In this document: positions 1 through 54,835 of the stretch, piece by piece
Numbering within the stretch: position 1 is the first letter of the stretch
How the letters are laid out: every line of letters begins with the position of its first letter
NCBI RefSeq assembly: GCF_019670005.1
Contig: NZ_AP019783.1
Span: 1,694,501-1,758,500 of the forward strand
DNA length: 64,000 nt
Reading direction: 5' to 3'
Source of the DNA: Methylomagnum ishizawai
Lineage (GTDB): Bacteria > Pseudomonadota > Gammaproteobacteria > Methylococcales > Methylococcaceae
Position numbers and translations under genes: made by a program
Notes under the pieces: model-generated
Databases searched by the model: none
The model's input: only the letters and a program-made list of their open reading frames with translations
What the model was told of the DNA's origin: nothing

Positions 1-126
1 CCGGGGGAAGGCGGGATTCCGCAGCACATAGAGCCGGTCGGCCAGGGCTTCGGACAGCATTTCCCAACCCAGCGATTTGGCGAAGTCGCGGAGGTCGAGG
101 GGTGTTACCAAGGTGTCCGGGGTCAT
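1..126 (-). CDS. Partial hypothetical protein, 3' end outside window
   Basis: Only the first 42 codons are present; the reading frame is open to the window edge. It begins MTPDTLVTPLDLRDFAKSLG. The ATG (126-124) overlaps the stop of the DUF4365 gene in an ATGA arrangement, so the two are probably translationally coupled and the gene is the fourth member of the mod-res-DUF4365 operon. No domain can be recognised in the visible part. Membership in a restriction-modification operon suggests an accessory role, but this is inference only. Confidence 0.6.
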   Translation of the reverse strand, partial: MTPDTLVTPLDLRDFAKSLGWEMLSEALADRLYVLRNPAFPR

Positions 127-671: not shown

Positions 672-698
672 GGTGATGGCCTGTTATTGGTTCGGCTT

Positions 699-37460: not shown

Positions 37461-38523
37461 GCTTGTCCTCTGCCATATAGGTGTCGATCTGGCGCAGGCT
37501 CAGGCCGCGGGGGTCGGCTCCCGACCAGTGGCTGGTGTGCCATTCGGTCACGGCGTCGAGCGCCCGCCCCAGGTGCCAGCGCGGTTGCCAGCCCAGGCGG
37601 TCCGCCGCTTTCTCGCAATCCAGCCGCAGATGGGTGGCTTCGTGGGGCTGGGGTTCGGTATCGAATTCCCAGCGCAGCCGGTCTTTCCACGCGGTCCGCA
37701 TCCGCTCCACGATCCAGCGCACCGGCTTGGCGTCGGATTTGGCCGGGCCGAAATTCCAGGCTTCGGCGAAGGCCGCGCCGTCCTGGTATAGCCGTTGCGC
37801 CAGGGTCAGATAGCCGCCCAAGGGTTCCAAGACATGCTGCCAAGGCCGGATGGCGGAGGGGTTGCGGATTTTGAGGGTTTTTCCGGCCTCGATATGGCGC
37901 AGGATGTCGGGAATCAGCCGGTCTTCGGCCCAGTCGCCGCCGCCGATGACATTGCCGGCCCTCGCGGTGGCGATGGCCGCCGGATGTCCGCCCGGCCCGA
38001 AATAGGATTGGCGGAAAGCTGCCGTTACCAGTTCGGCGCAGCCCTTGCTGCTGCTATAGGGATCGCGGCCGCCCATGGCTTCGTTCTCGCGGTAGCCCCA
38101 GGACCATTCCCGGTTCTCGTAGCATTTGTCGCTGGTGACATTGACCAGCGCCCGCACCGAGGCCACGCCGCGCACCGCTTGCAGCAGATGGACCGTGCCC
38201 ATGATGTTGGTGGAATAGGTCTCGATCGGATGGGCATAGGCATGGCGGACCAAGGGCTGCGCCGCCATGTGGATGACGATTTCGGGCCGGGCCAGGCGCA
38301 AGGCCCGCTCCAGGGCGTCGTCGTCGCGGATATCGCCCTCGATGGAATGCATGTCGCGGGCGACATCGGCCAGTTCGAACAAACTGGGCTCGGTCGGCGG
38401 CGGCAGGGCGTAGCCGACCACTTCCGCCCCCAGCCGCTGTAGCCACAGGCAGAGCCAAGCGCCCTTGAAGCCGGTGTGCCCGGTCACGAAGATTTTTTTG
38501 CCGCGCCAGAAATCGGGGGTCAT
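37426..38523 (-). CDS. rfbG: CDP-glucose 4,6-dehydratase
   Basis: The 365-residue SDR converts CDP-glucose to CDP-4-keto-6-deoxyglucose. It has [20 protein letters not shown] for NAD binding and the [15 protein letters not shown] catalytic Tyr-Lys, plus the [20 protein letters not shown] segment typical of DdhB/RfbG. It starts at ATG 38523, overlapping the rfbF stop (ATGA). Confidence 0.94.
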
Positions 38524-39290
38524 GACCACACCTTCCACGGGGCTTTGCCCGATTGCCAAAGTTCTTCCAGGAGGACTTTGTCGCGCAGGGTGTCCATCGG
38601 CTGCCAGAATCCCACATGGCGGTAGGCTTGCAACTGGCCTTCCCGCGCCAGTTGTTCCAGGGGTTGGCGCTCCCAGGAGGTGTCGTCGCCCTCGATGAAA
38701 TCGACCGCGCCGGGGGCCAGCACGAAGAAGCCGCCGTTGATCCAGCCGCCATCGCCGCGGGGCTTTTCCTCGAAACCCAGCACATCGCCGCCTTCCAGCC
38801 GCAACGCGCCATAGCGGCCCGGTGGCTGCACCGCCGTCACCGTCGCCAAGCGTCCATGGTGGCGGTGGAACGCCACCAAGCCGCCGATATCCACATCGGC
38901 CAGGCCATCGCCATAGGTGAAACAGAAATCATCGGCCCCCAGGTAGCGGCGGACCCGCTTCAAGCGGCCTCCGGTCTGGGTGTCGGGTCCGGTGTCGATC
39001 AGGGTGACGCGCCAGGGTTCGGCGTGGCGGTCGTGGATTTCCATGCGGTTCTCGGCCACATCGAAGGTCACGTCCGACATGTGCAGGAAATAATTGGCGA
39101 AATAGTCCTTGATGAGATAGCCCTTGTAGCCCAGGCAGATGATGAAGTCGTTGATCCCGTGGCTGGAATAGACCTTCATGATGTGCCACAGGATGGGCTT
39201 GCCGCCGATGGCGATCATCGGCTTGGGCTGTAGGTGGGATTCCTCGGAAATCCGGGTGCCCAGGCCACCCGCCAGGATCACGGCTTTCAT
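38520..39290 (-). CDS. rfbF: Glucose-1-phosphate cytidylyltransferase
   Basis: The 256-residue nucleotidyltransferase makes CDP-glucose from CTP and glucose-1-phosphate. [25 protein letters not shown] is the full N-terminal signature, and [17 protein letters not shown] holds the metal-binding aspartates. The length equals RfbF/DdhA. The start ATG 39290 is the family start; a longer in-frame upstream reading was rejected. It is the first enzyme of the CDP-dideoxyhexose branch, 114 bp downstream of the GT41 gene. Confidence 0.95.
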
Positions 39291-39404
39291 GTCACAACCT
39301 CCGGGACGCTTGCCTAGTCGCCATTCCCGCATAACGGCGGGGATGCCACGTTCCAGCGGCTGGTCTTGGATTCCCGGCCCGCCCGGTGGCGGGACGGCCA
39401 ATTA

Positions 39405-41249
39405 TTAATAGCCCTGGCTTAGCATGGAAGCATAGGCCAATTCCAGATTTCGGCAAAAAGCCGCGGTATCGAACAAGGGCCAATGGCTCCGTTCCGTGCG
39501 TAAGCGTTCCTTCAGGCCGGCGATGCGGGCGGGGGCATGGGCCAGTTCGATAATCAGATCGGCATAGCCGTCGAGGGAGGTGGCGATCAATTCGGGCATC
39601 CCGATGGCGTGCAACAGGCTCCCGGCCACCCGTGCCGGGAACGCCCCGCCCATATAGGTCACCACCGGCAAACCGGCCATGAGCGCGTCCGCCGCCGTGC
39701 TATGGGCGTTATAAGGCCAGGTGTCGAGGAACAAATCGGCGAGGCGGTAGCGGGCCAGATGGTCCTCGACCCTGGGCACCCGTCCGGCGAAGACCAGGCG
39801 TCCGGGGTCGATACCCTGGGCTTGGGCGGCGGCTTGCAGGTTGCGGCGGTTGGTGTCGCCGCGCGAAGCCAGCCATAGCACGCTGTCCGGCACCTGCGCC
39901 AAGACCCGCATCCACACCGCCCACAGCGGCGGCGAGATTTTGTAGTCCTGGCTGAACGAGCAGAACACCCGCCCCGTGTCCGGCAGGCCACAGTCGGCGC
40001 GGGTCGGGGTCGGGCCGATTGCGATGGAAGCATCGGTCGGCAGATAGCAATCCGGCAGATAGGTCACCCGCTCGCTGTAGAACGGCTGGTGTTCGGGCGG
40101 GATGACGTGGCGGTCGGCCAGGATGTAATCCATGAAGCCAACGCCCAAGGTGCCGGGATAGCCCAGGAAATTCACCTGCACCGGGGCCGGGCGCTGGGCG
40201 AAGATTTCGATGCGCGCATCCGAGGTGTAGCCGGCCAGATCGACCGCGATATCCACTTCCATGTCCCGCATCTTCTCGGCGATCTGGCGGGCGCCCAGGG
40301 CGCGGGCGTCGATGAAATGGTCGAAGGCTTGCACCATGCGTCCGCGCAAACGGCTGCCGTCGTCCGGTCCCAGCGAAATGGCGAGGGTCTCGAACCGGCT
40401 TTTGTCGTGATGCTCGAACACCCCGGCCATCAGGTGCCCGACCGGATGCTCGCGCAAATCCGGCGACACATAGGCCAGCCGGATGCGGTCGTGGGCATAG
40501 CGCTCGCCGCGCCAGAGGGGTGGACCGGGCGGCGGGCAATAGTAATGGGCGAACAAACGGGCGCAGAGGAATTGGTCGCTGGCGCTATCCGACAAGGCCA
40601 TGAAGGCCAGGGATTTGCACACCTTCCGCCCGGCCCGGATGCCCTCGACGATGGCGGCGCGGGCGGACTCGAAGCCGTTCCAATCGGCGCAGTGCATCTT
40701 TTCATACAGCAACAGTCCCGGCCCGTAGTCGTAGCCGGGATTGAGTTGCAACAGCCGCTCGAAACGGGCGATGGCTTGTTCCCCTTGCTTGAATTCGGTC
40801 AAGAGGATGGCGCTATTGGCGAGGGCCGGGAGATAGTCGGGTTGCAGCGCCAGCGCCCGGTCGAAGCGGGCCAGGGCGTCCTGGTGGCGGAGCAAATCCC
40901 GCAGTAGGGCACCGCTGTTGACCAGCGCCTCCACATAATCGGGCTGGATTGCCAGGGCTTGGTCGTAGCTCGCCAGGGCTTCCTGCCGCCGTCCCAGGGT
41001 TTGCAGCAACGAACCCTGCGCGAACCAGAGCGGGGCGAAATGCGGGGCCGCCCGCGTGCCCCGCTCGCAATAGGCCAAACCTTCCGCCGGATTCCCTTGG
41101 TTCAGCGCGATCACCGCCAGGGAATAGAGGGCGGCCCCGTTGCCGGGCTCGTCCGCCAGGATTTCCCGGAACAACCGGGCCGCCTCGGCCCAGTCGCCCC
41201 GGTTCTGTAGCGTTATGGCCTGTACCAGTTTCCCGTTTTGCGTTGCCAA
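39405..41249 (-). CDS. GT41 O-GlcNAc transferase-like protein with TPRs
   Basis: The 614-residue protein has about four to five N-terminal TPRs (residues 1-170: RGDWAEAARLFREILADEPG, RRQEALASYDQALAIQPDY, RHQDALARFDRALALQPDY) and a family 41 GT-B catalytic domain: RLAYVSPDLREHPVGHLM, DIAVDLAGYTSDARIEIFAQ, APVQVNFLGYPGTLG, MDYILADRHVIP, FLDTWPYNAHSTAADAL and GLPVVTYMGGAFPARVAGS. Bacterial homologues of SPINDLY/OGT modify Ser/Thr or sugars. The gene lies 61 bp downstream of the giant Thr-rich repeat gene on the same strand, which makes that protein a candidate substrate. Confidence 0.9.
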   Translation of the reverse strand: MATQNGKLVQAITLQNRGDWAEAARLFREILADEPGNGAALYSLAVIALNQGNPAEGLAYCERGTRAAPHFAPLWFAQGSLLQTLGRRQEALASYDQALAIQPDYVEALVNSGALLRDLLRHQDALARFDRALALQPDYLPALANSAILLTEFKQGEQAIARFERLLQLNPGYDYGPGLLLYEKMHCADWNGFESARAAIVEGIRAGRKVCKSLAFMALSDSASDQFLCARLFAHYYCPPPGPPLWRGERYAHDRIRLAYVSPDLREHPVGHLMAGVFEHHDKSRFETLAISLGPDDGSRLRGRMVQAFDHFIDARALGARQIAEKMRDMEVDIAVDLAGYTSDARIEIFAQRPAPVQVNFLGYPGTLGVGFMDYILADRHVIPPEHQPFYSERVTYLPDCYLPTDASIAIGPTPTRADCGLPDTGRVFCSFSQDYKISPPLWAVWMRVLAQVPDSVLWLASRGDTNRRNLQAAAQAQGIDPGRLVFAGRVPRVEDHLARYRLADLFLDTWPYNAHSTAADALMAGLPVVTYMGGAFPARVAGSLLHAIGMPELIATSLDGYADLIIELAHAPARIAGLKERLRTERSHWPLFDTAAFCRNLELAYASMLSQGY

Positions 41250-41310
41250 GTGATCCGCCTCCTGGATTGAGATCGGCGCAGCCTATCGGTTCCGGGTGGC
41301 GCTTGCCAAG

Positions 41311-44300
41311 CTATTTGCCTCCCTTGTCGCCGCCGATGGCGAGGAAGCCGGTCTTGGCCGGGTCCAGCGCGTCCGCGACGTTGAGCGGCGTGGCGGTCGA
41401 TTGCCCCAAGCCCGGCACGGCGGAGCGCGGGTTGCCGTTGGCGTCGAAGCGGTCCAACAAGCCGCTGATGCGGGAGACGTTCGCCGCCACGGTGCCGGTC
41501 TGGTTGCCGGACGGGGCGTCGAGTCCCGGCAGCGTGCCGCCGGCGGGCTGGGTCTGGGACTCGGCGAAGGCCGCGATGGCCTGGGCCATGCCGCTGACCT
41601 GGGTCCGCAAGCCTTGGCCGTCGCCGTTGGCTTGTTGCGACTTGTCGGCCACGAACCAGACATCCGCCGTTTGATGGGTGGCGCCGTCCTGGGTCTGGTA
41701 GGTGGAGATCAGGTTGATCCAGTTGCCTTGGTCCTTGATCGAAGTCTGCTCGGCATCCACCCCGATTTGCGTGATACCCAACGCGGCGAGGGTCCGCAGC
41801 TCCCCGGATTGGCTGACGCCATCCGAGTTGGCATCGACCCAGACCCGGAGGTCTTTGAAGGCCGCGTCCTGGGCGTCGAGCTGGCCGTCGTGGTCTTGAT
41901 CCAGGGCCGCCAGGGCCGCGTAGCCGTTGGCCGCCGTGCCGCCGGAAGGCAGCGGGGTGGCGTTGCCGAACAGCTCGGTGCCATCGCCGATGACGCCGTC
42001 GTGGTTGCGGTCCAGCGCCAACAGGCCGTCTTTCCGGTTGATCCAGCCGGTGGCGGTATCCTGCCCGGTGCCGAACAAATCGAAGCGCGTACCGGCGTCG
42101 ATCCCCAGCGATTTGACCCCATCCCCGTTGAGGTCCAGCGCCACCGGGCTCCCGATCTGCAAATGGCTGATCTGGACCGTGTTGAAGGAACTGATCTGGG
42201 TGGTGGTCAGCGCCATGACCTGGGCGGTGTTGAGCGCGGCCACCTCGAAGGTGGTCAGGGCCGCGATCTGGTTGGTGGTCAATACCACGATCTGGCTGGT
42301 GGTCAGGGCAGTAAGGTCGCCGGTTTCCATCGCGGCCACTTGCACCGTGGTCAGGTTCACCAACTGCTGGGTGGTGAGGGCCACGACCTGACGGGTGGTC
42401 AGGGCCACGATGGCGTTGGTGGTGAGCGCCGCGATACCCGCCGTGGTGAGCGCGGCGATCTGGGTGGTGCCCAGGGCGACCAGATCGGCGGTTTCAAGGG
42501 CCGCCACTTGGTTGGTGGTCAAGGCCGCCGCTTGCGCGGTGGTCAGGGACGCCGCCTGGAGGGTGGTCAGGGCGACCGCCTCGGTGGTGGTCAGGGCCGC
42601 GATCTGGGCGGTGGTCAAGGCCGCGATCTGGGCGGTCCTGAGGGCGGCGAGGTCGGCGGTTTCGAGGGCGGCGACCTGGGCCGTGGTGAGCGCCGTGGTT
42701 TGGGCGGTGGACAGGATCGCGGCTTGGACCGTGGTCAAGGCCACGGCCTGGGCGGTGGTCAAGGCCGCGACCTGGGCGGTGGTGAGCGCCGTCGCCTGGG
42801 TGGTGGCGAGCGCCGCGATGGTGGCGGTGGTGAGCGCCGCGACCTGGGCGGTGGTGAGGGCGGCGATCTGGACGGTCCTGAAGGCGACGAGATCGGCGGT
42901 TTCCATGGCGGCAACCTGGGCGGTCGTCAGCGCCGCCGTCTGGGCGGTGGACAGGATCGTGGCCTGGGCGGTGGTCAAGGCCACGGCCTGGGCGGTGGTC
43001 AAGGCCGCGACCTGGGCGGTGGTGAGCGCCGCCGCCTGGGCGGTTTTCAGGGCGGCGATGGCGGCGGTGGTGAGTGCCGCGACCTGGGCGGTGTTCATCG
43101 CGGCGACCTGGGCGGTCTTGAAGGCGGCGAGGTCGGCGGTTTCCATGGCCGCGACCTGGGCGGTGGTCAAGGCCGCCGTCTGGAGGGTGGTGAGCGCCGC
43201 CGCCTGGGTGGTGGTGAAGGCGACCGCCTGGGTGGTGGCGAGGGCGGCGACCTGGGCCGTGGTGAGCGCCGCGACCTGGACGGTCCTGAAGGCGGCGAGA
43301 TCGGCGGTTTCGAGGGCGGCGACCTGGTCGGTGGTCAGTGCCGCCGTCTGGGCGATGGACAGGATCGCGGCCTGGGCGGTGGTGAGGGCCACGGCCTGGG
43401 CGGTGGTCATCGCGGCGACCTGGGCGGTGGTGAGCGCCGCCGCCTGGGCGGTCTTCAGGGCGGCGATGGCGGTGGTGGCGAGCGCCGCGACCTGGGCGGT
43501 GTTCATCGCGGCGACCTGGGTGGTCTTGAAGGCGACGAGGTCGGCGGTCTCCATGGCCGCGACCTGGGCGGTGGTCAAGGCCGCCGTCTGGAGGGTGGTC
43601 AGCGCCGCGGCTTGCAGGGTGGTGAGGGCCACGGCCTGGGCGGTGGTGAGCGCCGCGACCTGGGCGGTCGTCAGCGCCGCGACCTGGAGGGTCTTGAAGG
43701 CGGCGAGGTCGGCGGTTTCGAGGGCGGCGATCTGCGAGGTCGTCAGTGCCGCCGTCTGGGCGATGGACAGGATCGCGGCCTGGGCGGTGGTGAGGGCCAC
43801 GGCCTGGGCGGTGGTCATTGCGGCGACCTGGGTGGTGGTGAGTGCCACAACTTGGGCGGTCTTCAGGGCGGCGATGGTGGCGGTGGCGAGCGCCGCGACC
43901 TGGGCCGTGTTCATCGCGGCGACCTGGGTGGTCTTGAAGGCGGCGAGGTCGGCGGTCTCCATGGCCGCGACCTGGGCGGTGGTCAAGGCCGCCGTCTGGA
44001 GGGTGGTGAGCGCCGCCGCCTGGGTGGTGGTGAGGGCGACCGCCTGGGTGGTGGTGAGGGCGGCGACCTGTGCCGTGGTGAGCGCCGCGACCTGGACGGT
44101 CCTGAAGGCGGCGAGGTCGGCGGTTTCGAGGGCCGCGACCTGGTCGGTGGTGAGCGCCGCCGTCTGGGCGATGGACAGGATCGCGGCCTGGGCGGTGGTG
44201 AGGGCCACGGCCTGGGCGGTGGTCATCGCGGCGACCTGGGCGGTGGTGAGCGCCGCCGCCTGGGCGGTCTTCAGGGCGGCGATGGCGGTGGTGGCGAGCG

Positions 44301-47300
44301 CCGCGACCTGGGCGGTGGTCATCGCGGCGACCTGGAGGGTCCTGAAGGCGGCGAGGTCGGCGGTTTCCATGGCGGCGACCTGGGCGGTCGTCAGCGCCGC
44401 CGTCTGGGCGGTGGACAGGATCGCGGCCTGGGCGGTGGTGAGGGCCACGGCCTGGGCGGTGGTCATCGCGGCGACCTGGGCGGTGGTGAGCGCCGCCGCC
44501 TGGGCGGTCTTCAGGGCGGCGATGGCGGCGGTGGCGAGCGCCGCCGTCTGCGCGGTGGTGAGGGCGGCGACCTGGGCGGTCTTGAAGGCGGCGAGGTCGG
44601 CGGTCTCCATGGCCGCGACCTGGGCGGTGGTCATCGCGGCGGTCTGGGCGGTGGTGAGCGCCGCCGCCTGGGTGGTGGTGAGGGCGACCGCCTGGGTGGT
44701 GGTGAGCGCCGCGACCTGGGCGGTGGTGAGCGCCGCGACCTGGAGGGTCTTGAAGGCGACGAGGTCGGCGGTTTCGAGGGCGGCGACCTGGTCGGTGGTG
44801 AGCGCCGCCGTCTGGGCGGTGGACAGGATCGCGGCCTGGGCGGTGGTGAGGGCCACGGCCTGGGCGGTGGTCAAGGCCGCGACCTGGGCGGTGGTGAGCG
44901 CCGCCGCCTGGGCGGTCTTCAGGGCGGCGATGGCGGCGGTGGTGAGCGCCGCCGTCTGCGCGGTGGTGAGGGCGGAAACCTGGGCGGTCCTGAAGGCGGC
45001 GAGGTCGGCGGTCTCCATGGCCGCGACCTGGGCGGTGGTGAGCGCCGCCGTCTGGGCGGTGGTGAGCGCCGCCGCCTGGGTGGTGGTGAGGGCGACCGCC
45101 TGGGTGGTGGCGAGGGCGGCGACCTGGGCCGTGGTGAGCGCCGCGACCTGGAGGGTCTTGAAGGCGGCGAGGTCGGCGGTTTCGAGGGCGGCGACCTGCG
45201 AGGTCGTCAGCGCCGCCGTCTGGGCGGTGGACAGGATCGCGGCCTGGGCGGTGGTCAAGGCCACGGCCTGGGCGGTGGTCAAGGCGGCGACCTGGGCGGT
45301 GGTCAAGGCCGCGACCTGGGCGGTTTTCAGGGCGATGATGGCGGCGGTGGTGAGCGCCGCCGCCTGGGCGGTGTTCATCGCGGCGATCTGGGCGGTCTTG
45401 AAGGCGGCGAGGTCGGCGGTTTCGAGGGCCGCGACCTGGGCGGTGGTCAAGGCCGCCGTCTGGAGGGTGGTGAGCGCCGCCGCCTGGGTGGTGGTGAGGG
45501 CGACCGCCTGGGTGGTGGCGAGGGCGGCGACCTGGGCCGTGGTGAGCGCCGCGACCTGGACGGTCCTGAAGGCGGCGAGGTCGGCGGTTTCGAAGGCGGC
45601 GACCTGGGCGGTCGTCAGCGCCGCCGTCTGGGCGGTGGACAGGATCGTGGCCTGGGCGGTGGTGAGGGCCACGGCCTGGGCGGTGGTCATCGCGGCGACC
45701 TGGGCGGTGGTGAGCGCCGCCGCCTGGGCGGTCTTCAGGGCGGCGATGGCGGCGGTGGCGAGCGCCGCGACCTGGGCCGTGTTCATCGCGGCGACCTGGG
45801 TGGTCTTGAAGGCGGCGAGGTCGGCGGTTTCCATGGCCGCGACCTGGGCGGTGGTCAAGGCCGCCGTCTGGAGGGTGGTGAGCGCCGCCGCCTGGGTGGT
45901 GGTGAAGGCGACCGCCTGGGTGGTGGTGAGGGCGGCGACCTGTGCCGTGGTGAGCGCCGCGACCTGGACGGTCCTGAAGGCGGCGAGGTCGGCGGTTTCG
46001 AGGGCCGCGACCTGGTCGGTGGTGAGCGCCGCCGTCTGGGCGATGGACAGGATCGCGGCCTGGGCGGTGGTGAGGGCCACGGCCTGGGCGGTGGTCATCG
46101 CGGCGACCTGGGCGGTGGTGAGCGCCGCCGCCTGGGCGGTCTTCAGGGCGGCGATGGCGGTGGTGGCGAGCGCCGCGACCTGGGCGGTGGTCATCGCGGC
46201 GACCTGGAGGGTCCTGAAGGCGGCGAGGTCGGCGGTTTCCATGGCGGCGACCTGGGCGGTCGTCAGCGCCGCCGTCTGGGCGGTGGACAGGATCGCGGCC
46301 TGGGCGGTGGTGAGGGCCACGGCCTGGGCGGTGGTCATCGCGGCGACCTGGGCGGTGGTGAGCGCCGCCGCCTGGGCGGTCTTCAGGGCGGCGATGGCGG
46401 CGGTGGCGAGCGCCGCCGTCTGCGCGGTGGTGAGGGCGGCGACCTGGGCGGTCTTGAAGGCGGCGAGGTCGGCGGTCTCCATGGCCGCGACCTGGGCGGT
46501 GGTCATCGCGGCGGTCTGGGCGGTGGTGAGCGCCGCCGCCTGGGTGGTGGTGAGGGCGACCGCCTGGGTGGTGGTGAGCGCCGCGACCTGGGCGGTGGTG
46601 AGCGCCGCGACCTGGAGGGTCTTGAAGGCGACGAGGTCGGCGGTTTCGAGGGCGGCGACCTGGTCGGTGGTGAGCGCCGCCGTCTGGGCGGTGGACAGGA
46701 TCGCGGCCTGGGCGGTGGTGAGGGCCACGGCCTGGGCGGTGGTCAAGGCCGCGACCTGGGCGGTGGTGAGCGCCGCCGCCTGGGCGGTCTTCAGGGCGGC
46801 GATGGCGGCGGTGGTGAGCGCCGCCGTCTGCGCGGTGGTGAGGGCGGAAACCTGGGCGGTCCTGAAGGCGGCGAGGTCGGCGGTCTCCATGGCCGCGACC
46901 TGGGCGGTGGTGAGCGCCGCCGTCTGGGCGGTGGTGAGCGCCGCCGCCTGGGTGGTGGTGAAGGCGACCGCCTGGGTGGTGGCGAGGGCGGCGACCTGGG
47001 CCGTGGTGAGCGCCGCGACCTGGAGGGTCTTGAAGGCGGCGAGGTCGGCGGTTTCGAGGGCGGCGACCTGCGAGGTCGTCAGCGCCGCCGTCTGGGCGGT
47101 GGACAGGATCGTGGCCTGGGCGGTGGTGAGGGCCACGGCCTGGGCGGTGGTCAAGGCGGCGACCTGGGCGGTGGTCAAGGCCGCGACCTGGGCGGTTTTC
47201 AGGGCGATGATGGCGGCGGTGGTGAGCGCCGCCGCCTGGGCGGTGTTCATCGCGGCGACCTGGGCGGTCTTGAAGGCGGCGAGGTCGGCGGTTTCCATGG

Positions 47301-48570
47301 CCGCGACCTGGGCGGTGGTCAAGGCCGCCGTCTGGAGGGTGGTGAGCGCCGCCGCCTGGGTGGTGGTGAGGGCGACCGCCTGGGTGGTGGCGAGGGCGGC
47401 GACCTGGGCGGTGGTGAGCGCCGCGACCTGGACGGTCCTGAAGGCGGCGAGGTCGGCGGTTTCGAGGGCGGCGACCTGGGCGGTGGTGAGCGCCGCCGTC
47501 TGGGCGGTGGACAGGATCGTGGCCTGGGCGGTGGTGAGGGCCACGGCCTGGGCGGTGGTCATCGCCGCGACCTGGGCGGTGGTGAGCGCCGCCGCCTGGG
47601 CGGTTTTCAGGGCGGCGATCGCGGCGGTGGCGAGCGCCGCGACCTGGGCGGTGTTCATCGCGGCGACCTGGGTGGTCTTGAAGGCGGCGAGGTCGGCGGT
47701 CTCCATGGCCGCGACCTGGGCGGTGGTCAAGGCCGCCGTCTGGAGGGTGGTGAGCGCCGCCGCCTGGGTGGTGGTGAAGGCGACCGCCTGGGTGGTGGTG
47801 AGGGCGGCGACCTGTGCCGTGGTGAGCGCCGCGACCTGGACGGTCCTGAAGGCGGCGAGGTCGGCGGTTTCGAGGGCGGCGACCTGGTCGGTGGTGAGCG
47901 CCGCCGTCTGGGCGGTGGACAGGATCGCGGCCTGGGCGGTGGTCAAAGCCGCCGCCTGGGCGGTGGTCATCGCCGCGACCTGGGCGGTGGTGAGCGCCGT
48001 TGCCTGGGCGGTCTTCAGGGCGGCGATGGTGGTGGTGGCGAGCGCCGCGACCTGGGCGGTGTTCATCGCGGCGATCTGGGTGGTCTTGAAGGCGACGAGG
48101 TCGGCGGTCTCCATGGCCGCGACCTGGGCGGTGGTCAAGGCCGCCGTTTGCGCGGTGGTCAGCGCCGCGGCTTGCAGGGTGGTGAGGGCCACGGCCTGGG
48201 CGGTGGTGAGGGCGGCGACCTGGGCCGTGGTCATGACGGCGATCTGGGCGGTCTTGAAGACGGCGAGATCGGCGGTTTCCAGCGCCGCCGCCTGGGCGGT
48301 GGTGAAGGCCGCGACCTGGGCGGTACCCATGTTGAGCGCTTGCGCGGTCGTCAGCGCGGCGATCTGGGTGGTGGTCAGGCCTTGGTTGATTTGGGTCGTC
48401 GAGAGCGCCGCCAAATCCCTGGTTTCGATGATTTGTATTTGGGCGGTGGTGAAGGCCGCGATTTGGGTGGTAGTGAGCGCGGCGAAATCCGCAGTGGAGA
48501 GCGATTGGACCTGGGCCGTCGTGAGCGCAGCGATCTGGGCGGTGGTCATGCCAATGACTATGGAGCTCAT
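41311..48570 (-). CDS. Giant octapeptide-repeat protein, candidate type I secreted surface protein
   Basis: The 2419-residue product is, from about residue 7 to 2130, a run of about 265 eight-residue units of the type LTTAQVAA, each usually with two Thr and one Gln. There is no signal peptide. The last 285 residues form a different domain with several Ca-binding-type loops: DLNGDGVKSLG, DRNHDGVIGDGTE, DQDHDGQLDAQD and DANSDGVSQSGE. This arrangement, with a C-terminal secretion region, is usual for type I cargo, and the ABC/HlyD pair is encoded divergently. ATG 48570 has GAGGAT upstream. Role (adhesin, S-layer or matrix protein) is inferred. Confidence 0.85.
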   Translation of the reverse strand: MSSIVIGMTTAQIAALTTAQVQSLSTADFAALTTTQIAAFTTAQIQIIETRDLAALSTTQINQGLTTTQIAALTTAQALNMGTAQVAAFTTAQAAALETADLAVFKTAQIAVMTTAQVAALTTAQAVALTTLQAAALTTAQTAALTTAQVAAMETADLVAFKTTQIAAMNTAQVAALATTTIAALKTAQATALTTAQVAAMTTAQAAALTTAQAAILSTAQTAALTTDQVAALETADLAAFRTVQVAALTTAQVAALTTTQAVAFTTTQAAALTTLQTAALTTAQVAAMETADLAAFKTTQVAAMNTAQVAALATAAIAALKTAQAAALTTAQVAAMTTAQAVALTTAQATILSTAQTAALTTAQVAALETADLAAFRTVQVAALTTAQVAALATTQAVALTTTQAAALTTLQTAALTTAQVAAMETADLAAFKTAQVAAMNTAQAAALTTAAIIALKTAQVAALTTAQVAALTTAQAVALTTAQATILSTAQTAALTTSQVAALETADLAAFKTLQVAALTTAQVAALATTQAVAFTTTQAAALTTAQTAALTTAQVAAMETADLAAFRTAQVSALTTAQTAALTTAAIAALKTAQAAALTTAQVAALTTAQAVALTTAQAAILSTAQTAALTTDQVAALETADLVAFKTLQVAALTTAQVAALTTTQAVALTTTQAAALTTAQTAAMTTAQVAAMETADLAAFKTAQVAALTTAQTAALATAAIAALKTAQAAALTTAQVAAMTTAQAVALTTAQAAILSTAQTAALTTAQVAAMETADLAAFRTLQVAAMTTAQVAALATTAIAALKTAQAAALTTAQVAAMTTAQAVALTTAQAAILSIAQTAALTTDQVAALETADLAAFRTVQVAALTTAQVAALTTTQAVAFTTTQAAALTTLQTAALTTAQVAAMETADLAAFKTTQVAAMNTAQVAALATAAIAALKTAQAAALTTAQVAAMTTAQAVALTTAQATILSTAQTAALTTAQVAAFETADLAAFRTVQVAALTTAQVAALATTQAVALTTTQAAALTTLQTAALTTAQVAALETADLAAFKTAQIAAMNTAQAAALTTAAIIALKTAQVAALTTAQVAALTTAQAVALTTAQAAILSTAQTAALTTSQVAALETADLAAFKTLQVAALTTAQVAALATTQAVALTTTQAAALTTAQTAALTTAQVAAMETADLAAFRTAQVSALTTAQTAALTTAAIAALKTAQAAALTTAQVAALTTAQAVALTTAQAAILSTAQTAALTTDQVAALETADLVAFKTLQVAALTTAQVAALTTTQAVALTTTQAAALTTAQTAAMTTAQVAAMETADLAAFKTAQVAALTTAQTAALATAAIAALKTAQAAALTTAQVAAMTTAQAVALTTAQAAILSTAQTAALTTAQVAAMETADLAAFRTLQVAAMTTAQVAALATTAIAALKTAQAAALTTAQVAAMTTAQAVALTTAQAAILSIAQTAALTTDQVAALETADLAAFRTVQVAALTTAQVAALTTTQAVALTTTQAAALTTLQTAALTTAQVAAMETADLAAFKTTQVAAMNTAQVAALATATIAALKTAQVVALTTTQVAAMTTAQAVALTTAQAAILSIAQTAALTTSQIAALETADLAAFKTLQVAALTTAQVAALTTAQAVALTTLQAAALTTLQTAALTTAQVAAMETADLVAFKTTQVAAMNTAQVAALATTAIAALKTAQAAALTTAQVAAMTTAQAVALTTAQAAILSIAQTAALTTDQVAALETADLAAFRTVQVAALTTAQVAALATTQAVAFTTTQAAALTTLQTAALTTAQVAAMETADLAAFKTAQVAAMNTAQVAALTTAAIAALKTAQAAALTTAQVAALTTAQAVALTTAQATILSTAQTAALTTAQVAAMETADLVAFRTVQIAALTTAQVAALTTATIAALATTQATALTTAQVAALTTAQAVALTTVQAAILSTAQTTALTTAQVAALETADLAALRTAQIAALTTAQIAALTTTEAVALTTLQAASLTTAQAAALTTNQVAALETADLVALGTTQIAALTTAGIAALTTNAIVALTTRQVVALTTQQLVNLTTVQVAAMETGDLTALTTSQIVVLTTNQIAALTTFEVAALNTAQVMALTTTQISSFNTVQISHLQIGSPVALDLNGDGVKSLGIDAGTRFDLFGTGQDTATGWINRKDGLLALDRNHDGVIGDGTELFGNATPLPSGGTAANGYAALAALDQDHDGQLDAQDAAFKDLRVWVDANSDGVSQSGELRTLAALGITQIGVDAEQTSIKDQGNWINLISTYQTQDGATHQTADVWFVADKSQQANGDGQGLRTQVSGMAQAIAAFAESQTQPAGGTLPGLDAPSGNQTGTVAANVSRISGLLDRFDANGNPRSAVPGLGQSTATPLNVADALDPAKTGFLAIGGDKGGK
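42170..48550 (-). repeat. Hierarchical tandem repeat: 24 bp, 408 bp and 1872 bp
   Basis: The basic unit is 24 bp (8 codons). ETADL-type variant octamers recur every 240 or 168 bp, mostly alternating, so the usual higher-order unit is 17 octamers, 408 bp. On top, a segment of 1872 bp (78 octamers) is duplicated in tandem: 43.9-45.8 kb matches 45.8-47.7 kb at that offset, including rare variants such as the GGCGGAAACC near 44972 and 46844. Confidence 0.9.
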
Positions 48571-49277
48571 ATTCGTATCCTCTTCAAGTTATTTGGAATG
48601 TCCACGATGACCCGGCATCGGCATTCATTCAGGTATAAAAATGAAATATCCGGCAGATAACAGCTTTCGATATATTTCGATTGATACGCTCGCCACCGGA
48701 TAGTTAAACCTTTAAATACTGTTTTCAGGCCCAGGGTTTGGGTGTCCCATGTGGATCGACGAAGTGGGGGTTGGGTCCCGAGGCCAAGGTCTACAGATAG
48801 ATTTTTCAGTATGTAGCGGTAGGGCTGGGTGAAACTTTAGTATTATTTTTGTGTAATTTTTATTTGATATATGTTTTTTTTGGAGACAGTGGTTTGGGCT
48901 GGGCATCTATAGGGATGACGCTTCCGAATATCGCCTGCTGGATGGGCTGGGAATTTTTTCACGTAAAATATTCATCGGTTTAAATCTGCCCTGTTTTGGT
49001 TTGGGATAAGCGGGATATGTTTATAAAAAATAACGGTATTTATGCTGTAGAGCTGGTGAACACTGTTGGAACTACTAAGAACCTGTAGAAGCCGCTGGCC
49101 TGGCCGGGAGACGCGCCGTGTATTGCGGGACGCATGCCCATCCACGGAGCCGGACCGGTGGGCCATGTGTCCGTCACCGCGCACGCGGAAGGATTGGGCA
49201 CTAGACTTCCCTCAAGACCGGCCTTGTCCCGGCCAATCCATGACACCCACCAGACCCGTCCATTTCCGAACACGCCC
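48571..49277. other. Divergent intergenic region between giant repeat gene and T1SS operon
   Basis: About 700 bp with no convincing gene. The middle (48650-49050) is AT-rich, unlike the flanks, and should contain the promoters of the repeat gene (leftward) and the ABC transporter (rightward). I could not assign promoter boxes or a riboswitch with confidence. Short open frames here show no coding character. Confidence 0.6.
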
Positions 49278-51419
49278 ATGCCCGCCGCTTTTCCGCATAC
49301 CGCCGTCCAGTGCCTCACCGCCATCGCCCAGCACCATGGACTCCGGGTCAACCCGGAGCGGCTGATCGACGAATACGCCCTGGGCGCGGAGGAGCCCCGG
49401 CCCGCTTTATTGCTCCGCATGGCCCAGGACATCGGACTCAAGGCCAAGCTGCAAAAACTCGCTTGGGACGGCTTGTTGGCGCAGGACGGGGTATTCCCGC
49501 TCATGGCCCGGTTGAACGGCGGCAATATGGTGATCGTGGTCGCGGTCCAGCCCCAGGAGGGCGGGCGGGTGGCCTTGATCGATCCCATGGCGGGCAAGGC
49601 CGAGGTCATCCTGGCTCCGGGCGGGCAGTTCCGCGAGCGCTGGAGCGGGGAGGTGGTGTTCCTCAAGCGCCATCACGCCCTGAACGACCCGGACCAGCCG
49701 TTCGGCCTGCGCTGGTTCGTGCCGGAAATCCTCCGCCAGAAGGACGCCTTCCGCGATATCGCCATCGCCGCCTTGGGCATGCATGTGCTGGGGCTGGCGA
49801 CCCCGATCTTTTTCCAGTTGGTGGTGGACAAGGTCTTGGTCCACAAGAGCGTTTCCACCCTGTGGGTGCTGGCGGTGGGGATCGCCCTGGCGCTGCTGTT
49901 CGATTCGGTGTTCGGCTATCTGCGCCAATTGCTGACCCTGGCCGCCACCAACAAGATCGATATGCGGATCACCCGGCGGGCGTTCGGCCATTTGCTGTCC
50001 TTGCCCATCGATTATTTCGAGACGGCGGCGGCGGGCGTGGTGGTCCGCCATATGCAGCAATTGGAAATCATCCGCCAGTTCCTCACCGGCCAGTTGTTCA
50101 CCACCACCCTCGACCTGGCCGCGCTGGGGATTTTCATGCCGATCCTGTTCGCCTATTCGGTCAAGCTGGCGATGATCGTGCTGGGTTTCACCGCGGTGAT
50201 CGTCGCCACCGTGGGCTTGTTGATGCCGACCTTCCGCCGTTTGCTGGACGCGCTGTACCGGGCCGAGGGCAGCCGCCAAGCCTTGTTGGTCGAGACCATC
50301 CATGGCATGCGGACGGTCAAGGCGCTGGCCATCGAGCCGGCCCAGCGCCGGGCCTGGGACCAGTTGTCCGCGCTGTCGATCGCCTCGCATTTCAAGGTGG
50401 GCAAGCTCGCCATCGCCGGCAACGCCCTGACCGATTTCCTGGGGAAGCTGTTGCCGGTCACGGTCATCGTCATCGGCGCCCAGGACGTGTTCGACCAGAC
50501 CCTCACGGTCGGCGCCTTGATCGCCTTCCAGATGATTTCCGGGCGGGTGGTCGCGCCCTTGGTGCAGATCGTGGCCCTGGTCAACCAATACCAGCAGACC
50601 GCCCTGTCGGTGCGGATGCTGGGCGAGGTGATGAACCGGCCCCCGGAAAGCCGTCCCGGCGCGGGCAACCTCAGGCCGCAGTTGGTCGGGGAAATCCGCT
50701 TCGAGGACGTGACGTTCCGCTACCCGGAATCGACCACCGCCGCCCTGGACCGTGCCGCGTTCGCCATCCCGGCGGGCAAGGTGGTGGGCATCGTCGGGCG
50801 CAGCGGTTCCGGGAAGACCACGTTGACCAAGCTGATCCAGGGTTTGTACGCGCCGCAGGAGGGCATCATCCGTTTCGACGGCGTGGACGCGCGCGAGATC
50901 GATCTGGCCCATCTGCGCCGCCAGATCGGGGTGGTCTTGCAGGAGAATTTCCTGTTCCGCGGCACCATCCGCGACAACATCGCCGTGGCCCGGCCCGACG
51001 CCAGTTTCGAGGAGATCGTCGCGGCCAGCCAGGCGGCGGGGGCGGAGGAATTCATCGAGCGCTTCCCGCAGGGCTACGACACCTTATTGGAGGAGAACGC
51101 CTCGAACCTGAGCGGCGGCCAGAAACAGCGCCTGTCCATCGCCCGCGCCCTGCTCACCAAGCCGCGCATCCTGATCCTCGACGAGGCCGCCAGCGCCCTC
51201 GACCCCGAAAGCGAGGCTATTTTTATCCGCAACCTGTCGCGCATCGCCGTGGGCCGCACCGTCGTCATGATTTCCCATCGCCTGTCCACCCTGGTCAACG
51301 CCCATGCCATCCTGGTGATGCAGCGGGGCTGCTTGGTCGATAGCGGCCGCCACGAAGAATTGCTGACCCGTTGCCCCACCTATCAACAGCTATGGCATCA
51401 ACAAACCAGCCACCTGTAG
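49278..51419 (+). CDS. Type I secretion ABC transporter (HlyB/LapB type) with inactive C39-like domain
   Basis: The 713-residue protein has an N-terminal C39-like domain (about 1-130), six predicted membrane helices (about 155-430) and an ATPase with GRSGSGKT (507-514), LSGGQ (611-615) and ILILDE (631-636). In the C39 domain the catalytic Cys position is T9 (HTAVQC) and the usual HFVV motif reads NMVIV (83-87), so it should bind, not cut, its cargo, as HlyB does. This fits a substrate without a leader peptide. ATG 49278 places the C39-like domain at the N-terminus; an earlier ATG adds 48 residues with no family features. Confidence 0.92.
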   Translation: MPAAFPHTAVQCLTAIAQHHGLRVNPERLIDEYALGAEEPRPALLLRMAQDIGLKAKLQKLAWDGLLAQDGVFPLMARLNGGNMVIVVAVQPQEGGRVALIDPMAGKAEVILAPGGQFRERWSGEVVFLKRHHALNDPDQPFGLRWFVPEILRQKDAFRDIAIAALGMHVLGLATPIFFQLVVDKVLVHKSVSTLWVLAVGIALALLFDSVFGYLRQLLTLAATNKIDMRITRRAFGHLLSLPIDYFETAAAGVVVRHMQQLEIIRQFLTGQLFTTTLDLAALGIFMPILFAYSVKLAMIVLGFTAVIVATVGLLMPTFRRLLDALYRAEGSRQALLVETIHGMRTVKALAIEPAQRRAWDQLSALSIASHFKVGKLAIAGNALTDFLGKLLPVTVIVIGAQDVFDQTLTVGALIAFQMISGRVVAPLVQIVALVNQYQQTALSVRMLGEVMNRPPESRPGAGNLRPQLVGEIRFEDVTFRYPESTTAALDRAAFAIPAGKVVGIVGRSGSGKTTLTKLIQGLYAPQEGIIRFDGVDAREIDLAHLRRQIGVVLQENFLFRGTIRDNIAVARPDASFEEIVAASQAAGAEEFIERFPQGYDTLLEENASNLSGGQKQRLSIARALLTKPRILILDEAASALDPESEAIFIRNLSRIAVGRTVVMISHRLSTLVNAHAILVMQRGCLVDSGRHEELLTRCPTYQQLWHQQTSHL

Positions 51420-52750
51420 AACCGGCCCATCCGGCCACGGCGGTCGATTTCCTGCCCGACGCCGACGAAATCGAACGCGCCCCCTTGCCGCGGGTGGCCC
51501 GGTTGACCTTGCACGTCCTGTTCGCCGTCTTGGTGGTCTTCCTGGCCTGGGCTTATTTTTCCGAGATCGAGCGGGTGGTGGTGGCGCATGGGCGCTTGGT
51601 CACGCCCTTGCCCAATATCGTGGTCCAGCCCTTGGAAACCGCCATCATCCAGAGCCTGGATGTGCGCCTGGGCCAGGTGGTGCGGAAGGGCGAGCGGCTG
51701 GCGACCCTGGACCCGACCTTCGCCAGCGCCGACGAGGCGCAGTTGCGGGTGCGCCTCAACAGCCTGGACACCGAGACCCGCCGCCTCCAAGCCGAACTGG
51801 CCGGTAAGCTGGGTCCGTCGCCCGCGGCCCCGGTCGATGCCGATACCCAACTGCAGGCCGAACTCCTGGACGAGCGGCGGGCCAATTACGCGGCCCAGAT
51901 CACCCATTTCGACGAAAGCCTCGCCCGCCTGCAAGCCGCCATCGAAACCGACCGCCGCGACCAAAAGGCCTTGGCCGAGCGCATCGAGCCGTTGCGGGAA
52001 ATGGAAACCATGCAGCAAAGCCTGGTCGAACGCCAACTCGGTCCCAAGACCGGCTTGCTGGAAGCCCGCGAGCGGCGTTTGGAAGTGGAGCGCGATATGC
52101 AATTGGCGATCAACCGCGAGCAGGAACTACGCAAGGAACTGGCTTCGACCCAGGCGGAAAAGGCGGCGTTCGAGAAGGGTTGGCGGCAAAAGACCATGGA
52201 GGAGCTATTGGCGGTCACGCGGGAGCGCGATTCGATCAAGGAGCAATTGCAGAAGGCGGACAAGCGCCAGAAGCTGGTGACGCTCACATCGCCCTCCGAC
52301 GCCGTGGTGCTGGAAATCGCCAAGCTCTCGCAAGGCTCGGTGGCGCGGGGGGCGGAAGCCTTGTTCACCCTGGTTCCGCTCGATGCCAAGCTGGAGGCCG
52401 AGGTCCAGATCGATTCCCTGGACGTGGGCTATGTCAAGCCCGGCGACCTCGCGCATCTCAAGCTCGACGCCTATCCTTTCCAGCGCCATGGCACGTTGGA
52501 GGCGAAGGTGCGGACCCTCAGCGAGGACGCCTTCCGCCGCGACGCCAATGCCCAGGCCGACGGCTTGGACGCCTATTACCTGAGCCGCATCGAACTGGGC
52601 GACACCCATTTGCGGCGCTTGCCCGCCCACGCCCGCCTGCTGCCCGGCATGACCCTCACGGCGGAAATCGTGGTGGGCAAGCGCTCGGTGATGTCCTATC
52701 TGCTGTGGCCCTTGACCCGCGCCCTGGATGAATCGATGCGCGAGCCGTGA
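51392..52750 (+). CDS. HlyD-family membrane fusion protein
   Basis: The 452-residue adaptor of a type I secretion system. A short cytoplasmic N-terminus, one membrane helix (about 37-56), a lipoyl/barrel part ([19 protein letters not shown]), a long coiled coil (about 105-285, many Glu/Arg/Gln), the second barrel half ([20 protein letters not shown]) and a C-terminal [26 protein letters not shown] typical of HlyD. It overlaps the ABC gene by 28 bp, so both are translated together. The outer-membrane TolC partner is not in the window. Confidence 0.92.
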
Positions 52751-52785
52751 CCGCCGCCAAAACCTTAAACGAAGGGAGAACAACC

Positions 52786-53877
52786 ATGACCAAAGTGGCG
52801 TTGATTACCGGCGTGACCGGCCAGGACGGGGCTTATCTCGCCGAATTCCTGCTCGGCAAGGGCTACGAGGTGCATGGGGTGAAGCGGCGGGCCTCGCTGT
52901 TCAACACCGAGCGCATCGACCACCTGTACCAGGACCCCCATGTCGATCACCGCCGTTTCATCCTGCATTACGGCGACCTGACCGATTCCACCAACCTGAT
53001 CCGCATCGTCCAGCAGGTCCGGCCCGACGAAATCTACAACCTCGCGGCGCAAAGCCATGTGCAGGTGTCGTTCGAAACCCCGGAATACACGGCGGACGCC
53101 GACGGCCTGGGCACGCTGCGGCTGTTGGAAGCCATCCGCATCCTGGGATTGACGGACAAAACCCGGTTCTACCAAGCCTCCACCTCCGAGTTGTTCGGCA
53201 AGGTGCTGGAAACCCCGCAACGGGAAACCACGCCGTTCTATCCCCGCTCGCCCTACGCCGTCGCCAAGCTCTACGCCTATTGGATCACGGTCAATTACCG
53301 GGAAGCCTATGGGATGTATGCCTGTAATGGCATACTGTTCAATCATGAGTCACCCCTCCGCGGCGAAACCTTCGTCACCCGCAAAATCACCCGCGGCCTC
53401 GCCCGCATCAAGGCCGGGATGCAGGAGCGGCTGCACCTCGGCAACCTCGACGCCCGCCGCGATTGGGGCCACGCCCGCGACTACATCGAAATGCAATGGC
53501 TGATGCTGCAACAACCCGCGCCCGACGATTACGTCATCGCCACCGGCGTGCAGCACACGGTGCGCGAATTCGTCGAGACGGCGGCGGAGTTCTTGGAGAT
53601 GCGGCTGGAATGGCGCGGCCACGGCGTCGAGGAAAAAGGCTACGACGCCGACACCGGGCGCTGCGTGGTCGAAATCGACCCGCGTTATTTCCGCCCCGCC
53701 GAAGTCGAAACCCTGTTGGGCGACCCGACCAAGGCGCGGGAAAAACTGGGCTGGACCCCACGCATCCCCTACCGCCAACTGGTCGAGGAAATGGTGCGGG
53801 AGGATAGGAAAGCCGCCGAGCGCGACGCCCTCTGCCGCCGCGAAGGCTATGCCATCCCCGAACGCAGCGAAGAATGA
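52786..53877 (+). CDS. gmd: GDP-mannose 4,6-dehydratase
   Basis: The 363-residue SDR makes GDP-4-keto-6-deoxymannose. It shows [19 protein letters not shown] (NADP site), the Y157-K161 pair in [10 protein letters not shown], and the conserved NILFNHESP-like [20 protein letters not shown]. Length is close to E. coli Gmd. ATG 52786 is preceded by AAGGGAG. It lies 35 bp after hlyD and 13 bp before fcl, so these are probably one operon. Confidence 0.96.
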
Positions 53878-53890
53878 GCGAGGCGCGAAC

Positions 53891-54835
53891 ATGGACAACC
53901 TGGATCGGAAGATTTTCGTGGCGGGCCACCGGGGCTTGGTGGGGTCGGCGGTGCTGCGCTGCTTGGAACGGCGGGGCTATCACAACCTGCTCACCCGCGC
54001 CCGCGGCGAAGTGGACCTGACCGATTACCGCGCCGTCGCGGCCTTGTTCCAGCAGGAAAAACCCGAGGTGGTGATCGACGCCGCCGCCAAGGTCGGGGGC
54101 ATCCTCGCCAACGACAGCTATCCCGCCGACTTCATCCGCGACAACCTCTTCATCCAGAACCACCTGATCGATTGCGCCTACCGGGCCGGGGTGCGCAAGT
54201 TCGTGTTCCTGGGTTCGTCCTGCATCTACCCCAAGGCCGCGCCCCAGCCCATGCGCGAGGAACACCTGCTCACGGGGGCGCTGGAACCCACCAACGAGTG
54301 GTACGCCGTCGCCAAGATCGCCGGTATAAAAATGTGCCAAGCCTACCGGCGGCAATATGGCTTCGACGCCATCAGCCTGATGCCCACCAACCTCTACGGG
54401 CCGGGCGATTATTTCGACCTGGAGAAATCCCACGTCCTGCCGGCCTTGCTGCGCAAGTTCCACGAGGCCAAGCAGCGCGGCGACGCCGCCGTCACGGTCT
54501 GGGGCAGCGGCACGCCCCGGCGGGAATTCCTCTACGTGGACGACCTGGCCGAGGCCGTGGTGTTCTTGATGGAAAATTACTCGGACCCAGGGATCGTCAA
54601 TATCGGGACCGGCGAGGATTTATCGATCCGCGAACTGGCCGGAATGATCCGGGCCGAGGTGGGGTTCGCGGGCGAACTGCGCTTCGACGCCAGCAAGCCC
54701 GATGGCACGCCCAGGAAATTGCTCGATGTGTCGCGCTTGTCGGCGCTGGGCTGGCGGGCGGCGACGCCGCTGGCCGAGGGCATCCGCAAAACCTACCGTT
54801 GGTATTTGGGTCACGCGGCGGACTTGCGGGTTTGA
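53891..54835 (+). CDS. fcl: GDP-L-fucose synthase
   Basis: The 314-residue epimerase-reductase finishes GDP-L-fucose synthesis. The NADP motif is VAGHRGLVGSAVLR (10-23), the catalytic Y138-K142 pair lies in EWYAVAKIAG, and SLMPTNLYGPGDYFD and REFLYVDDLAEA are family hallmarks. Together with gmd it supplies the donor for fucosylation, plausibly by the GT10-like domain at 24178-26139. Confidence 0.96.
   Translation: MDNLDRKIFVAGHRGLVGSAVLRCLERRGYHNLLTRARGEVDLTDYRAVAALFQQEKPEVVIDAAAKVGGILANDSYPADFIRDNLFIQNHLIDCAYRAGVRKFVFLGSSCIYPKAAPQPMREEHLLTGALEPTNEWYAVAKIAGIKMCQAYRRQYGFDAISLMPTNLYGPGDYFDLEKSHVLPALLRKFHEAKQRGDAAVTVWGSGTPRREFLYVDDLAEAVVFLMENYSDPGIVNIGTGEDLSIRELAGMIRAEVGFAGELRFDASKPDGTPRKLLDVSRLSALGWRAATPLAEGIRKTYRWYLGHAADLRV

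Follow-up and report, generated by a model that had tools for sequence, protein, structure and literature searches.

A nested octad repeat with a 17-octad period in a giant ALTTAQ gene of Methylomagnum ishizawai, and its GT41 neighbour

Introduction

A 64,000-nucleotide stretch of the Methylomagnum ishizawai genome (contig NZ_AP019783.1, positions 1,694,501 to 1,758,500, hereafter the window) contains a giant gene for a repeat protein of the ALTTAQ family (Pfam PF20080), in which short units are nested within longer ones at several regular distances. The question raised by this locus is where such regularity comes from. A preliminary description of the same DNA attributed it to stepwise expansion by unequal recombination. 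The comparison of the array with its counterpart in a second genome of the genus, and with related arrays of many other genera, indicates that the geometry of the encoded protein is most likely the deeper cause of the 168-, 240- and 408-bp pattern, and that the array is expanded and homogenised by unequal recombination, a conclusion that is well supported. The Pfam entry models 38 residues of the repeat; the lattice of 17 octads in 5 turns and the partnership with a glycosyltransferase of family 41 (GT41), both found in the present analysis, are new relative to that description. No paper on the ALTTAQ/PF20080 family was found in a literature search made without most subscription journals and preprints.

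Nested repeats in the giant gene

The giant gene (Table 1) has a single stop codon, at its end, and its frame is intact throughout. The product matches PF20080 with 1362.3 bits against a curated cut-off of 26.4, in 92 stretches of the Pfam search, and the array is thus a member of that family. When parsed into units of eight residues, the protein gives one run of 268 units, the last two of which fall in the C-terminal domain and are spurious, which leaves 266 octads (both spurious units were included in the lattice tests given below). Each octad, of the L-T-T-A-Q-V-A-A type, is encoded by a basic unit of 24 bp, as had been proposed, and 162 of the 268 parsed units carry Ser or Thr at both columns 2 and 3. 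Marker octads of the ETxDL form occur 31 times in the array. The first interval between them is irregular, and the remaining 29 measure either 7 octads (168 bp, 14 intervals) or 10 octads (240 bp, 15 intervals), mostly in the alternation reported in the preliminary description, which is broken at three places by two successive 10-octad intervals and at one by two successive 7-octad intervals.

Self-identity over the whole gene reaches 79.1% at an offset of 408 bp, and Tandem Repeats Finder returns 13.7 copies of a 408-bp unit with an 89% match. The highest value of all offsets from 6 to 4999 lies at 1872 bp (80.1%), and further peaks are found at combinations, such as 1464 and 2280 bp. Both the 408-bp unit and the near-identical adjacent segments of 1872 bp noticed before are therefore borne out, the latter with the qualification that the direct repeat is somewhat longer than two bare 1872-bp copies: its best segment covers 2219 bp (Table 1), with 21 mismatches and a longest exact stretch of 1055 bp. 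Compared with shuffles of the octad order, the array shows z scores of 29.4, 12.1 and 10.6 at lags of 17, 10 and 7 octads, respectively.

Long open reading frames also run on the plus strand opposite the giant gene (41296-48660, 2454 aa; 42395-48610, 2071 aa). In the simplest reading they are by-products of a 24-bp unit that is free of stop codons, and they could mislead automatic gene calling. A Pfam Fibrinogen_BP match of the giant protein (1.4e-35) was taken as similarity of repetitive, biased sequence and set aside.

A common lattice in ALTTAQ arrays of many genera

Divergent ALTTAQ genes of other genera have 168, 408 and 240 bp among their top offsets, with low identity at these offsets (genomes G020 and G049), and in a third genome (G056), where the units are lengthened by inserted residues, the top offsets are 426, 177 and 249 bp. 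For a wider comparison, the best 80 of 277 confirmed loci were kept, 72 of them distinct. A total of 78 proteins were parsed into octads, with inserted residues left out of the eight compared columns; 14 whose longest run fell short of 80 octads were omitted, which left 64 arrays for the lattice tests. Median z scores over these 64 arrays (100 octad shuffles each) were 10.9, 7.0, 5.2, 4.5, 4.5 and 4.0 at lags 17, 34, 10, 7, 24 and 27, with all remaining lags up to 40 below 1. Among lags up to 30, the best was 17 in 36 arrays, 27 and 7 in 7 arrays each, 14 in 5, 24 in 4, 10 in 3 and 5 in 2. In the median spectrum the main peak stands at 0.294 per octad (0.295 in the window array) and a second one at 0.412, the place of the aliased second harmonic of the first, and 61 of the 64 arrays peak within 0.288-0.300 when the scan is limited to 0.27-0.32. 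A pooled harmonic fit gives 105.91 degrees per octad, which corresponds to a sequence period of 3.399 octads per turn.

Leaving out pairs within recently duplicated contexts (30 shuffles each) does not remove the lattice, and z still exceeds 2 at lags 7, 10 and 17 in 80, 89 and 86% of the arrays, respectively. It is also found when each organism is represented by one array, in 39 label groups that were picked from record titles and may span fewer than 39 genera: in 38 of the 39, the best of the lags up to 30 is 7, 14, 17, 24 or 27, and the correlation of z with the cosine of a 17/5 period is positive in all of them (median 0.57), the lowest values being 0.06 and 0.08 in Leptothrix and Sphaerotilus. 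At 3.40 octads per turn, 7, 10 and 17 octads amount to 2.06, 2.94 and 5.00 turns, whereas the large repeats of 1872 bp (78 octads) and 2280 bp (95 octads) amount to 22.94 and 27.94 turns. As a sequence period, the twist of 3.4 octads per turn is a feature of the array family. The occurrence of the 7-, 10- and 17-octad spacing in many genera, with recent duplicates excluded, points to a structural register, in which a physical superhelix would turn by about 106 degrees with each octad.

Some arrays deserve separate mention. Octads bearing insertions offer a register test of their own, for which only G056 had enough (15 units); lag 17 was enriched 7.3-fold among them, and lags 7 and 10 were without any pair. 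Five Pseudomonas arrays (L049, L051, L064, L065 and L075) show the half-turn lags 5 and 22, with the top peak mostly near 0.41, as if features recurred on two opposite faces. A metagenome-assembled genome of Methylobacter carries two closely similar ALTTAQ genes (L043 and L044). In viral contigs, 44 stretches matched the recruiting pattern, none of which was a relative.

Predicted fold and distribution of octad kinds

A model of 51 octads of the window protein, obtained with AlphaFold2 from an alignment with 26 relatives (27 sequences), shows 51 helices in 51 octads, with a confidence (predicted local distance difference test, pLDDT) of 96.6 and a predicted template modelling score of 0.83, so one short helix per octad is predicted. 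A sequence search for solved structures gave a single convincing relative of the array, HeliScrew4 (PDB 9zem), which is only 120 residues long and, compared by sequence only, has a similar octad sequence over 100 residues (E 9.4e-13); no paper on HeliScrew4 was found. The best match of the array model in VIA was armadillo-like (4rv1_F, Z 7.6, root-mean-square deviation 8.8, 275 aligned), and Z values of this size are common for repeat models.

The octads fall into distinct kinds. Over the 64 arrays, Glu at column 2 coincides with Asp at column 5 at 6.4 times the expected frequency, and the pairings T-D and E-Q hardly occur (0.09 and 0.03 of expected). In the window array, the acidic markers share one preferred angle (R 0.89) and the F-K/R octads another, about 107 degrees from the first (R 0.94). 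As the array consists of 17-octad units, such clustering is in part automatic, and the resulting stripes are a reading of the lattice, not a separate proof of it.

A number of observations weigh against a lattice imposed by the structure of the protein. Above 0.2, the tallest peak in the spectrum of an array falls at 0.290-0.299 in 39 of the 64 arrays, at 0.396-0.415 in 21 and at 0.214-0.226 in 4. Lags 3 and 20 (0.88 and 5.88 turns) are not enriched, with z>2 in 2 and 6 of the 39 label groups, compared with 14 of 39 for lag 14, from which they do not differ in distance from phase; markers even avoid lag 3 (observed/expected 0.06), and our guess would be that like octads perhaps avoid contact in adjacent turns. 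Three arrays with a 14-octad unit (L046, L062 and L099) fall outside the 0.288-0.300 band, and one array (L057) has 5 as its best lag. The pattern used for recruiting contains the marker octad, which biases the presence of markers, not their spacing. In addition, homologous exchange alone tends to preserve a register that already exists. On the structural side, a second AlphaFold2 model, which covers the C-terminal part of the protein and in which about 10 leading octads lacked aligned relatives, shows two long helices there, which means that the result of one helix per octad rests on the alignment; the confidence of these octads is low (block pLDDT 52-72) and the model was given little weight. 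A backbone torsion scan produced compact octad screws at several twists, which include 3.3-3.5 octads per turn without any preference for it, and shows feasibility only. Finally, a Foldseek search with the array model found no solved structure at E<=0.001 in its library, and the best match was mesothelin (E 6.9e-3). As for the 14-octad arrays, two come from Sphaerotilus and one from Leptothrix.

Unequal recombination within the array

The syntenic orthologue of the giant gene in another genome of the genus (G001) encodes 2691 aa and stands among neighbour genes that are 90-99% identical to those of the window. Its array has 33 units and that of the window 29, and the two proteins differ by 272 aa (816 bp), which is exactly two 408-bp units. 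The strongest large offset also differs, being 1872 bp in the window array and 2280 bp in G001. Between the two species, the N-terminus, the C-terminus and the terminal repeats are about 95% identical and the central units only 87-88%, in contrast with 91.5-94.6% between units of one species (averages that leave out the unit at either end of each class). None of the 2000 label shuffles matched the observed difference within and between species in either unit class. When every unit is counted, 24 of the 29 window units and 29 of the 33 in G001 have their nearest counterpart in their own species, and the exceptions are the array ends together with one internal unit of the window array. Synonymous differences between species rise from 0.10-0.12 in the flanks to 0.23-0.25 in the centre of the array. 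Unequal exchange classically leaves this pattern, a homogenised centre between conserved ends. In proportion, silent differences between copies predominate, with a ratio of nonsynonymous to synonymous differences (pN/pS) of 0.33-0.48, which is in keeping with selection on the protein.

The original reading of the repeat pattern as stepwise expansion by unequal recombination is therefore partly supported. The own-species nearest units, the differing large repeats and the 816-bp difference speak for it, and the length variation that had been expected between strains is seen here between two species. What that reading misses is the 7/10/17-octad spacing that dominates the arrays of many other genera, and hence the structural register.

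Taken without such a register, the 24-, 408- and 1872-bp lengths would be successive amplification units devoid of structural meaning. The near-identical 1872- and 2280-bp copies, the species-specific homogenisation and a length difference of exactly 816 bp are what recombination alone would leave, but it is hard put to account for a 7/10/17 lattice shared by many genera and kept without recent duplicates, for best lags that differ from array to array (7, 10, 14, 17, 24 and 27) and still fit one twist, or for the depletion of markers at distances out of phase (observed/expected 0.04, 0.23 and 0.35 at lags 1, 16 and 18), and we regard it as improbable as a full explanation. About as unlikely in our view is descent from one ancestral cassette of 17 octads (7+10), kept by homologous exchange with no continuing structural constraint. 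Lag 17 is indeed the best within 30 in more than half of the arrays, and other genera have marker octads of a similar kind; a 17-octad cassette, however, does not readily yield best lags of 7, 14, 24 or 27, nor the half-turn lags 5 and 22 of the arrays with a strong second harmonic, and pairs in dissimilar surroundings keep the lattice. A collapsed or duplicated assembly, the other danger foreseen in the preliminary description, has in its favour that the copies share an exact stretch of 1055 bp, hard for short reads; as the 1872-bp copies differ at 21 sites, the orthologue in G001 has a similar array with another large offset and the frame is intact all along the gene, such an artefact is highly implausible.

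The GT41 neighbour

Directly downstream of the giant gene lies a gene (Table 1) for a protein with tetratricopeptide repeats (TPR) and an OGT-like Glyco_transf_41 domain (PF13844, E 1.1e-83), whose closest matches in the PDB are the 110 kDa subunit of OGT (E 1.1e-100) and XcOGT (3.4e-89), ahead of SPINDLY (3.3e-71). Homologues of this protein are present in 30 of the 72 related loci. Less than 2 kb of sequence extends beyond the array in 35 loci, and among the 37 that can be checked the homologue is found in 27. Of these 27 homologues, 24 follow the array on its own strand, with 166 to 1060 nt between the array frame and the start of the match; two others are upstream, and the last, a partial match, lies on the opposite strand at a distance of 6.8 kb. 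PF13844 occurs in 25 of 61 relative genomes, and the genome of the window has four such domains in 5.2 Mb including the neighbour of the array, so that chance proximity within 8 kb would be, by our own estimate, of the order of 1%. In four of the six genomes with PF20080 (G000, G001, G007 and G056) a GT41 gene stands beside the array. This arrangement suggests that the giant protein may be glycosylated by its neighbour. PF20080 is found in one of 14 control genomes, that of Caulobacter vibrioides, which also has PF13844.

The neighbour could instead act on another target, such as a surface glycan or flagellin, with its position reflecting a glycan island. The window does hold other sugar genes, three more GT41 domains are encoded elsewhere in the genome, and the link to the repeat protein rests on gene order, which is lacking in 10 of the 37 checkable loci and in two of the PF20080 genomes (G020 and G049), where GT41 is found only on other contigs. 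Over the 72 loci, however, other sugar neighbours are rare (gmd at 1, the CDP-glucose pair at 1, a DegT aminotransferase at 3 and fcl at none), as opposed to the recurrent GT41 gene, and we hold another target to be somewhat unlikely. O-fucose was considered as the donated sugar, since genes for GDP-mannose 4,6-dehydratase (gmd) and GDP-L-fucose synthase (fcl) adjoin the secretion genes, and was not adopted because gmd and fcl are not conserved at other loci and because the neighbour is closer to OGT than to SPINDLY.

The domain composition of the neighbour, TPR with a GT-B-type enzyme, is shared with OGT, XcOGT and SPINDLY of GT41 and with FlmG of Caulobacter. SPINDLY is described as a GT41 O-fucosyltransferase (PMC9715652) and FlmG as O-glycosylating flagellins in the cytoplasm (PMC7591256). 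What sets the GT41 protein of the window apart from OGT, SPINDLY and FlmG is its conserved neighbour, a giant repeat protein accompanied by type I secretion genes. HMW1C, another glycosyltransferase, belongs to GT41 as well. The pair of the window resembles HMW1 and HMW1C, a large secreted protein with a glycosyltransferase of its own, although HMW1 uses two-partner secretion and Asn sites (PMC3012730), whereas the window has type I genes and octads rich in Ser and Thr.

A C-terminal domain related to the FrpC self-processing module

Beyond the array, the giant protein ends in a region (Table 1) with a domain that matches the self-processing module (SPM) of FrpC by sequence (PDB 6sjw, E 7.3e-33, aa 2142-2310) and, in an AlphaFold2 model with a block pLDDT of 94-98, by Foldseek (6sjw, E 6.0e-19, TM by target 0.82). 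The fold and the EF-hand-like motifs are common to the module (6sjw, 6sjx) and to the domain, whose calcium motifs were recognised by alignment to 6sjw. The FrpC module has a scissile Asp-Pro (PMC7078468), but the residue at the scissile position just before the window domain is Ser (S-P), not Asp. A pattern that leaves this residue free found 38 SPM-like domains in 37 of the 78 ALTTAQ loci, all 38 with Ser/Thr-Pro (Thr in 24, Ser in 14, Asp in none). With Ser/Thr-Pro in place of the scissile Asp-Pro, the clip-and-link reaction is not expected, and the domain would be a calcium-folding, non-cleaving cap; the ALTTAQ-linked domains may represent a non-cleaving subfamily. Glycine-rich nonapeptide repeats of the RTX type were sought in the giant protein without any Pfam or NCBIfam match at E<=0.1, and none was seen by eye.

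Secretion genes and other neighbours

On the upstream side, the giant gene is adjoined by genes for a type I secretion ATP-binding cassette (ABC) transporter and an HlyD-type adaptor (Table 1), which make type I export of the giant protein a plausible route. Homologues of both are present in 8 of the 72 loci, and any of ABC, HlyD and TolC in 18. A Pseudomonas asturiensis plasmid carries three consecutive array genes and a TPR protein matching the GT41 protein of the window, and on its other strand TolC, HlyD and ABC genes in a row. In the array region of this plasmid (L115, 6597-13888) each of the three genes has octads, and the first is annotated as a heme utilization protein.

The type I genes of the window are followed by gmd and fcl, the GDP-fucose route, both of which are also present in G001 and are not conserved elsewhere. 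Nucleotide-sugar genes also occupy 35566-39401 (glucose-1-phosphate cytidylyltransferase, CDP-glucose 4,6-dehydratase, DegT aminotransferase and a sugar 3,5-epimerase). Beside the sugar genes lies a gene for an FG-GAP repeat protein (54897-56042), with no homologue in the 72 related loci, and at 56039-58134 a gene for a PAS-GGDEF protein adjoins one for a second PAS-containing protein.

Table 1. Location of the giant gene, its parts and the adjoining genes (positions within the window)
Feature	Position	Strand	Evidence
Giant ALTTAQ-repeat gene, 2419 aa	41311..48570	-	Open frame; PF20080 profile match
Octad array, 266 octads, interrupted near the N-terminal end by a linker of one residue	42163..48549	-	Octad parses
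1872-bp direct repeat, first copy in window order, overlapping the second	43853..46071	-	99.05% over 2219 bp
1872-bp direct repeat, second copy in window order	45725..47943	-	99.05% over 2219 bp
C-terminal region with FrpC SPM-like putative calcium-binding domain at 41641-42147	41314..42162	-	PDB, AlphaFold2, Foldseek
TPR + Glyco_transf_41 (OGT-like) protein, 614 aa as listed, directly downstream of the giant gene	39405..41249	-	PF13844
Type I secretion ABC transporter, C39-like N-terminal domain	49134..51419	+	PF00664, PF00005, PF03412; TIGR01846 E 7.1e-193, below curated cut-off
HlyD-type periplasmic adaptor	51371..52750	+	TIGR01843 315.2 bits vs cut-off 208.65
GDP-mannose 4,6-dehydratase (gmd)	52747..53877	+	TIGR01472 601.5 bits vs cut-off 415
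Probable GDP-L-fucose synthase (fcl)	53849..54835	+	NF047922 495.9 bits, just under cut-off 500

Discussion

The explanation proposed for the locus, which as a whole we consider probable, is that of an alpha-helical screw with a superhelix register, overlaid by in-register unequal exchange, in a fibre that is glycosylated, exported by a type I system and capped by an SPM-like domain. Each octad would form one short helix, and the next octad would be turned by about 106 degrees round a common axis, with 3.40 octads per turn. Octads of the same kind, acidic (E-x-x-D), basic (F-K/R) and others, would then line up as stripes along the rod, and the 168/240-bp spacing of the markers and the 408-bp repeat would arise because octads of one kind align at whole turns. 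Unequal exchange between near-identical copies, at distances of 408, 1872 and 2280 bp, all of them near whole turns, would lengthen, shorten and homogenise the centre, while the ends of the array would stay put as the centre becomes homogeneous within each species. The OGT-like GT41 enzyme would probably modify the Ser/Thr-rich octads before the adjacent type I system exports the giant protein, the order described for flagellin and FlmG (PMC7591256), and the calcium-folding, non-cleaving SPM-like domain would cap its C-terminus. The protein may finally serve as a surface or released fibre, or as an adhesin.

It is possible, if still tentative, that the arrays represent a widespread and undescribed class of fibres, with a screw of 17 octads in 5 turns, stripes on its faces, dedicated OGT-like O-glycosylation, type I export and a length set by exchange. 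The value of 105.9 degrees per octad is a structural prediction for which a single model or crystal structure would suffice as a check and, if true, this family would offer a clear case of superhelix geometry dictating the lengths of higher-order DNA repeats. A giant repeat family is also linked to a conserved OGT-like enzyme, a link that provides a substrate candidate for bacterial GT41 enzymes.

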